The notes beneath the pieces are model-generated. The model saw nothing but the letters and a program-made list of their open reading frames with translations. It was not told the origin of the DNA and did no database searches. 44,199 nucleotides of DNA from a virus. The first letter of the stretch is position 1. The number at the start of each line of letters is the position of its first letter. The stretch is taken from positions 1 through 44,199 of IMG/VR virus record IMGVR_UViG_3300048834_000393. One strand, given 5' to 3'. Shown piece after piece: positions 3,708 through 38,307 of the stretch. Made by a program: the position numbers and the translations under genes.

Positions 3708-4817
3708 CTACTTTCCGAGACCCTCGGTGAGGCCGCGGCCGGGCTGGTGGTGGGCGTAGATCTGCGTCGTGCTCTGGCTCTGGTGCCCGAGCAGCGACTG
3801 CACGGCGAACATGGTGGCGCCGCCCTGCAACAGGTGGCTGGCGAAGGTGTGCCGCAGGTCGTGGATGTGCAGCCGGTTCCCATCGCTCCGCTTGAGCCCC
3901 AGGGCATCCACTATGCGATACCACGGCCACCGCAGGTCTGCCCGGTACTGCCGGCCGGGCTTGGGTAGGGCACCCGGCGCCACGAGGTAGGCCCCAGGAT
4001 GGCCCCTGCGTGGCCGCAGTTCGTCTTCCAAGGCCGAACACAGGTCTACCCACCGTTCGGCCCCCTGCTTGCCCCACAGGCGCACGAGGCCGGCGCCGTC
4101 GGGGCCAGAGAAGCGGACGTCCTCCCACCGAACGTGGAGAATCTCGGAGTGACGCGCTCCGAGGTAGTAGCCGAGGTAGACCGCCAGCAGCATGTCGTCG
4201 CCCTCGTCACGGGCGGCCTCCATCAGCCGTTGCAGTTCGTCTCGGGTGAGGAACCGGTGCCCAGGGCGACCGGCCTGCTTGCGGGCGTAGCCCTCCACTT
4301 CCAGCCATGGGTCGTGGGCGCGCTCGATCAGCGGCTCGCCGTCGGCCCGCAGTCTCTGCATCCGGCGCCACACGGATCGCAGTTTCCGCTGGCGGGAGTT
4401 CCACCCGCGGCGCGCGCGCTCCAGCGCAGGCTGGTCCACGCTGCCGGCGGCCGGCACACACGCGGCTTGGTAGCGGTAGACCGCATCGACGGTTACGCCG
4501 GACACGGTGGTCACGCCGGCGCGATCCAGCCATGCGGCGAAGTGGCGCCACGCGCCGGCGTTGGCGGCGAGCGTCTTGGGGTCGCGTTGGCCCTCGGCCC
4601 ACCTGGCGTAATGCCGCCAGCAGTCGGCCAGCGGGCGGTCGGTGGCCTCGGGCTGCATGCCCAGGGCGCGCAACCGCAGTTTGTCCTCCAGATCGGCGAG
4701 CACCCGCTCGGCCTCCCGGCGGATGGTCGTGCCAGTGGACCGGGCGCGGCAACGCCGGCCCTCGTTCCACCGCACGATCCACCGGCCGGACTTCGGGTCT
4801 TGGTCAAGCCATGCCAT
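3708..4817 (-). CDS. int: Tyrosine recombinase (phage integrase), 369 aa
   Basis: This enzyme catalyses site-specific recombination between attP and the host attB. An N-terminal arm-binding-like domain (residues about 1-55, [19 protein letters not shown]...) is followed by a helical SAM-like core-binding domain (about 60-170) and the catalytic domain. All active-site residues are visible: R222 in GARHSEI, the probable lysine K250, H319 and R322 in HDLRHTF, H345 in LLGHQS and the nucleophile Y354 in TQIYAHH. Length is normal. The ATG at 4817 follows the stop of the upstream gene by only two bases, so it is the last gene of the leftward operon driven from 7088-7116. Its 3' end faces attP, with a terminator between. 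Confidence 0.97.
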
Positions 4818-34324: not shown

Positions 34325-34586
34325 GGTTCCACTCCTGCATCGCGAACACGGGCACGATCCGCATGAAGTCGGCATCGGTCACGCGGTCCTCCCAAATGGC
34401 CCGGTCGTAGTGCTTCGTGCGCCGGATGGCCCGCTGCGCGTCGGCACGGGTCGGGAACAGGATCGGGTGATCGCCGTTGCCCGTCAGGCAGTTCGGCGGC
34501 GCGCCGGGGCTGTCGTTCAACCCCTGCACAAACTCCATCCCGTCGCAGACCCACACGACGATGTGTCCGATTGGCTTGCGGTTCAT
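34317..34586 (-). CDS. Hypothetical protein, 89 aa
   Basis: The start is the ATG at 34586 with GGAGGGGAAGCC upstream; a longer frame to 34715 runs through the neighbouring zinc-ribbon gene. It reads MNRKPIGHIVVWVCDGMEFVQGLND... and ends with ADAQRAIRRTKHYDRAIWEDRVTDADFMRIVPVFAMQEWNHA. The N-terminal strand and the ADAQRAIRRT helix suggest a small alpha/beta domain. No family recognised. Overlaps the upstream gene by four bases and the downstream gene by eight. Confidence 0.7.
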   Translation of the reverse strand: MNRKPIGHIVVWVCDGMEFVQGLNDSPGAPPNCLTGNGDHPILFPTRADAQRAIRRTKHYDRAIWEDRVTDADFMRIVPVFAMQEWNHA

Positions 34587-34738
34587 GGCTTCCCCTCCAT
34601 CCGGGCCATCGCCCGGTCGTTGTCGATTCCCCGGCGCTCCTGCGGGGTCAGGCACGCCGCACAGGTCTGTACCACGGCCCCGTCGTCGGCGACCACCTCG
34701 TAGACCGCCTCCCACTTACGGCAGCGCGGGCACCTCAT
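34583..34738 (-). CDS. Small zinc-ribbon protein, 51 aa (paralogue of 41441-41623)
   Basis: The ATG at 34738 begins a 51-residue frame ending four bases inside the next start. It has CPRC near the N terminus and CAAC about 25 residues later, followed by LTPQERRGID. The peptide at 41441-41623 has the same CxxC...CxxCLTPxERxxI layout, so the two look like duplicates. The two pairs should bind one zinc ion. Small ribbon peptides of this kind may act in protein contacts; nothing more can be said from sequence. Confidence 0.75.
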   Translation of the reverse strand: MRCPRCRKWEAVYEVVADDGAVVQTCAACLTPQERRGIDNDRAMARMEGKP

Positions 34739-34741
34739 TGG

Positions 34742-35878
34742 TCAGCCTCCGATTCCAAGCCGCGCCGCAAGGAGAACAAATGCGCGTGCCGCCACGACCG
34801 GAACGACTGCATTCCCAAGGCACCGCAATCGGTCCACCCGCGCGGAAACCCCATTAGCCACTCCACAAACAGCGGGTTCAAGCGTCGGGTCTGCGGCGAG
34901 CACTTCGGCCCAATCGTCGTGTGCGCTTGGGCCTGGTGGGAAAGGTCGGCAAGGGCCCGCTTCCCCGCCGAGGGCTTCACCCCGTCCATCGCCATCGGGG
35001 TGGCCCAGTTGCCCAGCCGGGCTTGCTGGCCCAGTCCCATCTCGCCCTTGCGGTCCCCGCCCCGACTCCGGAACGAATCCGCCCCCGGCGTCTGCCAGTT
35101 GGCCGCCGTCGAGTTGAGATCGATCGTGAAGCCGCGCGCCTGCTTCCTCTGATAGTTTCCGGAGTCCGGGCTGTCCGGGTTCTTCACACCCCTCGCTTGC
35201 GGCGTCGGCCAGTTCTTCGCCTGGTCCGGCAGCAGCGCCTCCCGCTCCGCCGCCCCAACCTGCCGCCGCGACGGCATCATCGAGCCCGTGGGGGTCTGCC
35301 ACTTCTGCTCCGCCGCCTCGTCCAATTGCCCCCGCCGCTGTCCCAATTTCGCAGTCCCCTTCCCGTCGTTCGCCCCGGCGGTGGGCCAGGATGAACAACC
35401 GCTTCCGCCCATGCGGCGCGCCCACTTCCTCCGCTGTAAACAGTCCCTCGACAACGCGATAGCCCGCTCCTTCAAGGTCGGCTCTGACTCGGTCGTATCC
35501 CATTGAAAGGTGAGCTGCGACGTTCTCGAAGAAACAGATTCCCGGCTGTACCTCTCGCACAATACGGAATACGTCGGGCCACAGGTGGCGCGGATCGCGT
35601 TCACCAAGTCGCTTTCCAGCGAGGGAAAACGGCTGGCACGGGTAGCCACCAGTGACGATATCCACGAGGCCGCGCCACGGTCGGCCATCGAAGGTCTTGA
35701 GATCGTCCCAGACAGGCGCGCAATCCAGGGCCGCGTCCTCCATCCGCGCCACGAGAGCGGCCGCGGCGTAGGCGTCCCGCTCGACGTGACAAATAGCTCG
35801 GTAGGTGCCTCCGAGGGCGAGGTGCAATCCGAGGTCGATTCCGGCAATCCCGGAACATAGAGCCAGGCCATTGATCAT
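34742..35878 (-). CDS. C5-cytosine DNA methyltransferase, 378 aa
   Basis: Transfers a methyl group to cytosine in DNA, either to modify phage DNA against host restriction or to affect expression. The ATG at 35878 overlaps the primase gene stop. Motif I is LALCSGIAGIDLGL (residues 5-18), motif IV GGYPCQPFS with nucleophile C81, motif VI FENV (E118) and motif VIII GAPHGRKRLFILA. Motifs IX-X near the C terminus include VDRLRCLGNAVVP. The target-recognition part between contains repeated VADP/LADA/LADAG segments seen in long-TRD family members. A second frame on the same strand (34735-35871) is open over the whole gene and carries W-P-T-P-type repeats; see findings. No partner restriction enzyme is present. 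Confidence 0.88.
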   Translation of the reverse strand: MINGLALCSGIAGIDLGLHLALGGTYRAICHVERDAYAAAALVARMEDAALDCAPVWDDLKTFDGRPWRGLVDIVTGGYPCQPFSLAGKRLGERDPRHLWPDVFRIVREVQPGICFFENVAAHLSMGYDRVRADLEGAGYRVVEGLFTAEEVGAPHGRKRLFILAHRRGERREGDCEIGTAAGAIGRGGGAEVADPHGLDDAVAAAGWGGGAGGAAAGPGEELADAASEGCEEPGQPGLRKLSEEAGARLHDRSQLDGGQLADAGGGFVPESGRGPQGRDGTGPASPAGQLGHPDGDGRGEALGGEAGPCRPFPPGPSAHDDWAEVLAADPTLEPAVCGVANGVSARVDRLRCLGNAVVPVVAARAFVLLAARLGIGG

Positions 35879-38307
35879 GCTTCCTCCGCCTTGTTGACAA
35901 CTGCCCCGCCCTTTACCTCGTAGCGACCATCCTTGAGCAGACGGCGGCGCAGGCTGGACTCGCTTACCTCGATGTGCGCGGCGAGCGCGGATAGCAGCAC
36001 GGTGCCGCTCAGGTCGCGCACGGACGCCATGGCGCTGTCCAGCGTGTGCTGCGCATGCGCTTCCCTGGTCCGAACCACGCCGTCGTCGTCCACCACGATC
36101 TCGCGGCACTTCGACGCAATCCGGCGCTTAAGCGTGGCGGCGGTCATGCCCATGGACTCGGCCAGGTCGCCGACGAGCACCGGTCCCTCGTCGAAGGTTG
36201 CGGCACTCTGGAAGGCGGACAGGATGGCCTCCCGCTGATTCTGGCGCTCGCTCTGGCTCTTGGCCTTCTTCTCCCGCTGCGCGGCCACCCAAGGCGCTTC
36301 CTCGCCGTCGGCCTTGGCGCTCGCAAGGATGCCGTCGGTGTCGTCAACGTGGACCGGGTAGACGAACATCATGTGGCGCGGTGGCGGGGTGGCGAACTCA
36401 CGCAGGGTTGCCTCCACGCGCCACGCGCTCACGCTGGCCGCCCGCGCACGGGCCTGCTCCACGAGATGGTCCAGCCCGGCACGCTCGTTGGGGGTCAACA
36501 GGCTGGCCGCCTCGGCGTAGAGATGCTTCGCCACGATGGCGGCGTCCTGCCCGATGCTCTCCCGCCACTGCGGGCGGCAGGCATCGAGGAACCGATGGAC
36601 CTCCGGGCAGACGATCCGGTTCTCGATGACGTCGCGGGCGCCCTGTTCGAGGTTCAACTCGATGATGTCGAGGATGGCGTCCGGGTCGCGGGCGAACACG
36701 CCGGACCCGCTGGAGCGGTCGCGGCTGGACTTCTGGCCCTGCGCGCCCTTCGAGTGGTGGTGGCAGTAGATGACGGCCGCGCCCAACTCGGAGCACACCC
36801 GGTCGAACTGGTTGCAGAAGAACGCCATCTTGTCGGCGGCGTTCTCGTCGCCCGTGATGACCTTGTAGATGGGGTCGATGATGATGGCCTTGTAGTGCTT
36901 CGTCGCCGCACGCCGAATGAGTTTCGGCGCGAGAACGTCCATGGGCACGGCCTTCCCGCGCAGGTTCCAGATGTCGATGTTGGCGAGGTGTCCCGGCGCT
37001 TGGCCACGGGCCTCGTAGAGCACCTTCAACCGCTGGAGGCACGATGGCCTGTCAAGTTCAAGGTTGACATAGAGCACGCGCCCCTGCGTGCAGCGCCAGC
37101 CCATCCAGTCCCAGCCCTCGGCGATGGCGATGGCGAGTTGCAGCAGCAGGTAGGACTTGCCCGCCTTTGACGGGCCGGACAACAGCAACTTGTGTCCCTC
37201 GCGCAGGACGCTGCCAATGAGTGGTGGGGCCAGCGGCGGGAGGTTGGCCCACACGGAGTCGAGCGGCTCGAAGTCCGGCAGGTTGTCGTTGAGTTCCTCG
37301 ATCCAGTCGCGCCACTCGGCCCACGATTCCTTGCCCTGGCTCAAGCCAACAAGGTACTGCGGCTTCCCGTTCCGCGTGACGCCGGGCATCCGGGACAGGC
37401 GCGACACGTTCTTGTTCTGCGTGTCGATTTCCAGCCCGTTCTTCCTGCACACCTTGTGAAGGAAGTTCACCCGCTCGCGGTACTCCTCCTTCGAGGTGGC
37501 CTCGATGCGGACGATGGCATGCAGGCTCTTGCCACCGCTGTGGACCAGCGCGGCGATGGGCAGTTCCAGTTCAGCGTAGATGGCGGCCTGCCGCTCGATG
37601 GACACGGTGTCGCTCTCAATCAGCGCATAGCGGCAGGCGACCACGTTGTCGTCGCGGACGCCCTGTCCATCCAGCGGGTTGAACCGAATCCACGCGCCCG
37701 CGTCGGGGTGCCAGTCGCCCAGAGCGCCACCGATGTCCTTGTACTTGGACAGTTCCGAGATCAACTCTCCAGCGGTGCGGTGGTAGGTTCCCTTCTTCGG
37801 GAGCCACTTTGTCGTGCCATCAGGCTGGAATGCCTCGCAGACGTAGCCGACGTATTCCTCGGCGGAGAACAGGGCGGTCAGGTACTTGATCAGGTCGGCC
37901 ACACCGTCCCACTGGTCGGCGGTGGGGGCCTCAATCTCGGCAGGCTCCACCCATGACGGGTCAATAATCTGGAGGGACTTGTCGGCGCTGGCGCCCCCGC
38001 CGATAACGTCGTCCCAGTCCAGCGCCCGCCCTGTGGACTGGCGCTTGGGCGGGGTCCAGCCGCTGCGCTTCGCCAGTTCCATGAGCGTGCCCATGGTTAC
38101 GGGTGTGCCGTTGCCCCGGAACCCGGCCCACTTCCTGGCGCACTCGCCGGGGCGGAATCGTTCGGTGTCCTGCGCGGACCACTGTTCCCAGTCGATGATG
38201 CTTCCGCGCTCGTGCTGGATAGCCATCCCAACGGACAGCCAGTCTTGGTAGTCCAGCCCACGCGGGTCGATGTGCCGGAGCACTTCTTCGAGGGATACAT
38301 CCGCCAT
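35875..38307 (-). CDS. Primase-helicase with PriCT_2, AEP-like and RecA-type ATPase domains, 810 aa
   Basis: Domain order: residues about 8-90 are PriCT_2-like (LRHIDPRGLDYQDWLSVGMAIQHE...W..WSAQD..RFRPGECARKWAGF...TMGTLMELAKRSGW). Residues about 195-310 carry AEP-like primase features (CRYALIESDTVSIERQAAIYAELELPIAALVHSGGKSLHAIVRIEA...NVSRLSRMPGV). Residues about 365-560 are a RecA/AAA_25 ATPase with Walker A G378-S385 (GPSKAGKS), Walker B AIIIDPI (D478) and VIYCHHHSKG. The C-terminal 200 residues hold two winged-helix-like modules. It should prime replication and unwind DNA. The gene overlaps both neighbours by ATGA-type joints. Confidence 0.9.
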   Translation of the reverse strand: MADVSLEEVLRHIDPRGLDYQDWLSVGMAIQHERGSIIDWEQWSAQDTERFRPGECARKWAGFRGNGTPVTMGTLMELAKRSGWTPPKRQSTGRALDWDDVIGGGASADKSLQIIDPSWVEPAEIEAPTADQWDGVADLIKYLTALFSAEEYVGYVCEAFQPDGTTKWLPKKGTYHRTAGELISELSKYKDIGGALGDWHPDAGAWIRFNPLDGQGVRDDNVVACRYALIESDTVSIERQAAIYAELELPIAALVHSGGKSLHAIVRIEATSKEEYRERVNFLHKVCRKNGLEIDTQNKNVSRLSRMPGVTRNGKPQYLVGLSQGKESWAEWRDWIEELNDNLPDFEPLDSVWANLPPLAPPLIGSVLREGHKLLLSGPSKAGKSYLLLQLAIAIAEGWDWMGWRCTQGRVLYVNLELDRPSCLQRLKVLYEARGQAPGHLANIDIWNLRGKAVPMDVLAPKLIRRAATKHYKAIIIDPIYKVITGDENAADKMAFFCNQFDRVCSELGAAVIYCHHHSKGAQGQKSSRDRSSGSGVFARDPDAILDIIELNLEQGARDVIENRIVCPEVHRFLDACRPQWRESIGQDAAIVAKHLYAEAASLLTPNERAGLDHLVEQARARAASVSAWRVEATLREFATPPPRHMMFVYPVHVDDTDGILASAKADGEEAPWVAAQREKKAKSQSERQNQREAILSAFQSAATFDEGPVLVGDLAESMGMTAATLKRRIASKCREIVVDDDGVVRTREAHAQHTLDSAMASVRDLSGTVLLSALAAHIEVSESSLRRRLLKDGRYEVKGGAVVNKAEEA

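Follow-up and report, generated by a model that had tools for sequence, protein, structure and literature searches.

A phage locus with two overprinted reading frames as a probable two-subunit DNA cytosine-5 methyltransferase

In 1995, Lee et al. reportedly found the gene for the small subunit of the M.EcoHK31I methyltransferase nested in that for the large subunit, in another reading frame. M.EcoHK31I (YGGCCR) is a C5 methyltransferase made of two polypeptides: the large one carries motifs I–VIII and X, the small one supplies motif IX, and the target-recognition region (TRD) is predicted to lie in the large subunit (PMC3404938). M.AquI, also a C5 methyltransferase of two polypeptides, has motifs I–VIII in one chain and the distal variable region together with motifs IX and X in the small subunit (PMC3404938). 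One engineering idea is to split off the small domain but leave the motif X helix attached to the large one (PMC5944983), and the locus described here would be a natural version of that design.

The window, an IMG/VR virus record of 44.2 kb (44,199 nucleotides), has genes for phage replication, head, and lysis, and in it two 378-codon ORFs, A and B, overlap almost completely on the minus strand between a primase gene and a 51-amino-acid Cys-rich ORF (Table 1). Frame B is +1 relative to A on the same strand, its ATG (35871) lying 7 nt downstream of that of A (35878) and its stop at 34735, and its product, beta, extends 7 nt beyond the end of alpha, the product of A. The primase TGA overlaps the ATG of A (ATGA); primase shares the frame of B, and its stop falls one codon ahead of the B ATG. 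We read the locus, with a probability of about 0.85, as encoding a two-subunit DNA cytosine-5 methyltransferase of which alpha and beta would be the two halves, judging from sequence comparison and structure prediction. The first-pass annotation of this DNA had placed a methyltransferase frame at 35878–34742 and a second frame at 35871–34735, and both are there at those positions with 378 residues each; the motifs I, IV, VI, VIII, and X that it listed for A are likewise present, and motif IX, which it did not mention, lies in B.

As in M.EcoHK31I, the large chain has motifs I–VIII and X and the small one has motif IX, and the beta gene lies inside the alpha gene in another frame, here +1 on the same strand. 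The locus differs in that beta overlaps all of alpha and has a conserved N-terminus of its own and a dual-coded island, and in that the TRD would lie in beta, where coding is in frame B and alpha is predicted to be disordered, whereas in M.EcoHK31I it is predicted in the large subunit, a difference that counts against our reading. Relatives of the locus fall into a full class, in which B opens near the start of A and closes near its end, and a short class, in which B opens later, commonly about 140–160 nt into A; the short class is the closer of the two to M.EcoHK31I in layout. With M.AquI the locus shares one chain holding the catalytic motifs I–VIII and another holding the distal variable region and motif IX, but motif X is in alpha here, so the small subunit does not carry IX and X together. 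An M.AquI-like layout is found in Gordonia phage Upyo, with motifs I–VIII in gp54 and the repeats, IX, and X in gp53. Two single-chain actinophage methyltransferases, the Mycobacterium phage proteins prophiGD91-2 gp27 and IrishSherpFalk gp71, have the same motifs, with LLPTP repeats, a motif IX of the form FxEWMMGWP, and motif X, but everything is in one reading frame. A C-terminal profile of the prophiGD91-2, IrishSherpFalk, and Upyo enzymes aligns to beta from the repeats through motif IX (probability 97.8) and to alpha at motif X only (probability 95.3). PHROG_1008 and the 'internal' genes of Paenibacillus larvae phages are beta-frame proteins, and the Tadhana and Redbud records annotate both frames, with beta nested in alpha; the P. 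larvae phage genes differ from the window in being of the short class, with beta starting about 200 nt into alpha. Where prophiGD91-2 gp27 (L126; L numbers are our labels for loci) encodes the motif VIII region, its +1 frame has a further LLPTP repeat (LLPTPRATDGTKGGPNQRGSSGDLMLPSAV) and then a stop, as though an overlapping beta frame had left a remnant there.

Table 1. Features of the A/B locus in the window
Feature	Coordinates	Strand	Evidence
Frame A (alpha): ORF of 378 aa for a C5 cytosine methyltransferase	34742..35878	-	PF00145 at residues 5–171, 1.7e-28
Frame B (beta): ORF of 378 aa in +1, with WPTP repeats plus motif IX	34735..35871	-	PHROG_1008 at residues 73–349, 1.1e-24; conserved in well over 100 loci
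Candidate ribosome site (GGAGG), upstream of A ATG by 4 nt and of B ATG by 11 nt	35883..35887	-	From sequence; putative function
Primase gene, upstream	35875..38307	-	PHROG_2597
Cys-rich ORF, 51 aa, downstream; ATG overlaps B stop (ATGA)	34583..34738	-	ORF reading
Alpha motifs I–VIII, residues 1–173, coded in frame A	35360..35878	-	A position-3 changes dominate; AF2 pLDDT mostly 87–98, one block 66; M.HhaI match
Alpha filler, residues 179–306, LADA-type repeats; open, not conserved as protein	34961..35344	-	A position-1 changes dominate in relatives; AF2 pLDDT about 35
Alpha segment ahead of motif X, residues 307–334, invariant Trp323	34877..34960	-	A-coded in L083–L095 clade; pLDDT 75–86
Motif X in alpha (RVDRLRCLGNAVVP...)	34751..34843	-	pos3/pos1 1.87 and 2.18; pLDDT about 97; aligns to motif X of single-chain enzymes
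Beta start, conserved N-terminus MAWLYVP	35851..35871	-	Kept in full class, including where displaced relative to A
Dual-coded island, B residues 30–74 over A residues 34–74	35650..35784	-	Low third-base entropy; synonymous difference 0.248 (full class)
Apparent beta TRD, WPTP/WQTP/WATP repeats, B residues about 160–325, coded in frame B	34897..35394	-	Substitution pattern; alignment with the LLPTP repeats of phage methyltransferases of the single-chain type
Motif IX in beta (LNPLFVEWLMGFPRGWT)	34831..34881	-	pos3/pos1 0.40 and 0.50; nearly invariant in 56 beta sequences

Complementary segments under protein-level selection in the two frames

In a +1 overlap, the first position of an A codon is the third position of a B codon. 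Between close pairs, differences fall at A position 3 over motifs I–VIII and at A position 1 over the repeat region, and the parsimony steps in a nine-sequence clade fall mostly at position 3 for A codons 16–195, at position 1 for 196–330, at position 3 for 331–345, at position 1 for 346–360 (motif IX), and at position 3 for 361–393 (motif X); codons 46–90 are low in changes at all positions, which fits a dual-coded island. In 30 disjoint pairs of the full class, the ratio of position 3 to position 1 differences is 1.99 for residues 1–33, 1.64 for 34–75, and 2.30 for 75–160, then 0.82 over the TRD, 0.40 over motif IX, and 1.87 over motif X, and in a second data set it is 2.62 before the start of B, 1.55 in the B-motif overlap, 0.76 over the TRD, 0.50 over motif IX, and 2.18 over motif X. 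This switching of the changes between frames means that the LADA-type repeats of A are a shadow of the WPTP repeats of B, with A real on both sides of them. It had been remarked at first pass that the repeats of one frame become those of the other; the correspondence holds, with WPTP as its conserved side. Flanking genes were dropped as a neutral control, the automatic choice having often taken shadow ORFs, and the contrasts are thus limited to those within the gene and within the family.

Both frames also stay open, much more often than would be expected from codon usage. The sole +1 stop of the A ORF is the TGA at its start codon, where synonymous codon shuffles give an expectation of 4.5 (fraction as low, 0.003), and the stretch under A residues 77–160, read in +1, has 3 stops in 80 non-redundant relatives, where 61 would be expected. 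Openness of A in this first set is conditioned on a long A ORF; in the second set, which is independent of A length, A is open over the TRD at 73 of 76 loci (8 expected) and B over the N-terminal part at 72 of 76 (12 expected). Since stops would build up in an untranslated frame, the fact that both stay open argues that both are read through. Counting against the two-subunit reading are stops in the alpha filler of L097, L194, and L208 and a shifted frame in L048, L201, and the L190 group.

The first-pass annotation had posed a choice between real overprinting and one frame being a conserved shadow that misleads annotation. The shadow explanation makes frame B no more than a conserved by-product of the methyltransferase frame in DNA that is rich in GC. 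The window has a GC content of 66% and shadow ORFs are common in it, the N-terminal half of B is largely unconstrained, and frame +2 is likewise above its synonymous shuffles; however, changes pile up at the third position of B over the TRD and motif IX, the openness of B greatly exceeds expectation, at GC 0.45–0.55 as well, and the start of B, MAWLYVP, is conserved, leaving the shadow explanation barely credible. The overprinting is real, the two frames being under selection as protein in segments that complement each other, and shadow applies in part, to the filler, namely to A over the repeats and to B over much of motifs IV–VIII. Normal synonymous variation under A, with stops in B in relatives, had been named as the refuting outcome, and the relatives have the opposite, in support of overprinting. 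The form that it takes was not foreseen at first pass: each half uses the filler stretch of the other.

Although much of the N-terminal half of B is an unconstrained shadow, the island within it is not. In the full class, several codons of A residues 34–72 have a frozen third base (Pro55, for example, is CCT in 52 of 59), and the synonymous difference is 0.248 at the island versus 0.366 elsewhere in the conserved N-terminal part of A. In the short class, where the island region is mostly uncovered by beta, it is 0.549, and suppression comes later, at A residues 106–150 (0.23–0.33, in six pairs only). The suppression moves with beta coverage across the classes and thus follows beta. A leave-one-out HMM test, in which B is scored against synonymous shuffles, was set aside for the N-terminal part of B, as the control frame +2 also exceeds its shuffles, because third positions are constrained in any overlap.

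Predicted roles of alpha and beta

The PF00145 match in alpha is confined to residues 5–171, and motif X stands at the C-terminal end; motif IX is absent. Alpha has the motifs I, IV (PCQ), VI (ENV), VIII, and X by which a C5 methyltransferase (PF00145) is recognized, and its motif columns are invariant, but the usual single-chain form, with TRD and motif IX in the same chain, is not what is found, both being in frame B. AlphaFold2 (AF2), run for alpha on a 62-sequence alignment, gives mostly high confidence at residues 1–173, a pLDDT of ~35 at 179–306, moderate values at 310–334, low values at 335–351, which lie under motif IX, and high values at 352–376. The model matches M.HhaI with a Z score of 23.0 and an rmsd of 2.1 over 196 aligned residues, in a range reaching residue 378, which fits a packing of motif X on the large domain. 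Alpha is predicted to be an M.HhaI-like large domain followed by a disordered filler of ~130 residues and motif X.

In the case of beta, profile searches matched no Pfam or NCBIfam family, and our searches found no known homologue of beta N-terminal parts; PHROG_1008, which B matches, carries the label 'DNA methyltransferase'. A beta profile gave just two weak, chance-like matches in the PDB, and a search of plasmids with a short-class beta found no relative. AF2 of beta alone is poor (pTM 0.23), with the exception of motif IX and a few helices, which counts against the two-subunit reading, and a fold search with this model was dropped, the model being too uncertain. From the coding pattern and the alignments, the TRD apparently sits in beta. 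The N-terminus M(A/S)WLYVP is retained in L014, L016, L027, L105, L107, and L088, though there it is upstream over other A codons, and its being kept over differing A codons argues for independent initiation and against a frameshift.

A programmed frameshift after motif VIII, fusing the catalytic part of A to the TRD and motif IX of B in one chain, would find parallels in the known single-chain homologues and in the natural in-frame fusions of the A N-terminal part to the B C-terminal part in L190, L192, and L201, but it is improbable: the fusion product would be without motif X, yet X is conserved in A after IX; both frames are open on both sides, whereas a frameshift would require neither to be open past the shift site; and the downstream frame, which would then have no start, shows in B a conserved N-terminus of its own. 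Inspection by eye of the window around motif VIII also turned up no obvious slippery heptamer. We regard as improbable the possibility that both frames are translated but that beta works apart from the methyltransferase, say as a regulator or in counter-defence. The missing Pfam and NCBIfam matches of beta and the lack of a known homologue for its N-terminal parts in these searches would suit a separate protein, but alpha is without motif IX and a conserved TRD and beta has both, the C-terminal part of beta has its homologue in the corresponding part of single-chain enzymes, and natural A–B fusions exist. The two-subunit reading draws on the recurrence of the pair, the frame-switching substitutions, the openness of both frames, the beta N-terminus, and the island that tracks beta, as well as on the AF2 model of alpha, the single-chain profile alignments, and the M.EcoHK31I precedent.

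In a two-subunit enzyme of this kind, alpha, translated from the ATG at 35878, would provide the catalytic large domain with motifs I–VIII, a filler of ~130 residues, and motif X packing back on the large domain, and beta, translated from its own ATG, would provide a short conserved N-terminal part, a filler, and then the W-P-T-P target-recognition region and motif IX. Going by general knowledge of C5 methyltransferases, alpha would bind AdoMet and supply the catalytic Cys of the PCQ motif, and beta would read the DNA sequence. The two chains would assemble into an enzyme active on a putative target sequence, and it would modify the phage DNA, plausibly against host restriction.

Recurrence, annotation, and variant loci

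The nested +1 pair is present at well over 100 IMG/VR loci. The 80 loci retrieved with B carry A and the 24 retrieved with A carry B (incomplete contigs excepted), and B is +1 of A throughout with one exception, L048, which has an apparent one-base shift. A short-class profile retrieved another 80 matches, including some contigs already in the earlier sets, and 71 of these are nested +1 with A continuing beyond motif IX, at GC down to 0.45. It is an even bet that these cytosine methyltransferases form a phage family that is widespread, reciprocally overprinted, and obligately two-subunit: the filler of each gene would carry the essential domain of the other, specificity would lie in a small subunit without a Pfam or NCBIfam model, and dual-coded parts, three-piece versions, and frame switching driven by repeats would have evolved in addition.

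Gene finders usually annotate one frame of the pair, and the earlier suspicion that annotation is misled here is borne out by related phages, which annotate A, B, or both. The locus is annotated in frame B as 'hypothetical protein' in Synechococcus phage Ssp-JY39 and in frame A as 'cytosine-specific DNA methyltransferase' in Yong-M2-251, the 'cytosine-specific methyltransferase' of Acidovorax phage Alfacinha3 is frame B, and frame B alone is listed for a Sphingomonas paeninsulae plasmid, the gene table of which is incomplete. Some P. larvae phage records annotate both frames, one with the note 'g50 internal gene', so the overlap had already been seen by annotators. If the two-subunit reading is true, many phage and prophage records hold half a methyltransferase, and specificity prediction from the annotated methyltransferase frame reads filler. 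We found no paper describing such an overlap in phages in the open-licence literature, an absence that proves little; relative to the literature covered, the full-length overlap with the beta start and island, the evidence for a TRD in beta, the reciprocal filler, and the breadth are new, and a two-subunit split of the M.EcoHK31I kind is already known. Long same-strand overlaps with selection shown on both frames are uncommon, and recurrence in well over a hundred contigs makes this one a test bed for overprinting.

Several loci depart from the common arrangement. In L048 (2900–4500), a one-base shift ahead of the TRD, either a mutation or a sequencing error, exchanges the two frames in comparison with L028, a relative. 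L029 (about 3738–4180) has, inserted between motifs IX and X, an additional ORF whose residues are Cys/His-rich and HNH-like, with A open through to X, and in L100 (886–2716) ~1.8 kb between motifs VIII and X, perhaps an insertion element, splits both frames, with the same match positions in L119. Alpha has stops after motif VIII in L194 (1620–3160), L208 (1700–2900), and L097 (585–2010), with motif X conserved in the frame of A, and in L194 and L208 the motif X segment could restart at a Met just ahead of YWPPGP; these are possibly three-piece methyltransferases. Finally, L190 (2274–3200), L192 (498–1400), and L205 (2274–3190) have a run encoding RERERE..., with the N-terminal part of A in frame with the B TRD and motif IX in L190 and L192 and the N-terminal part of B in frame with A motif X in L205, which looks like a phase-variable frame switch.
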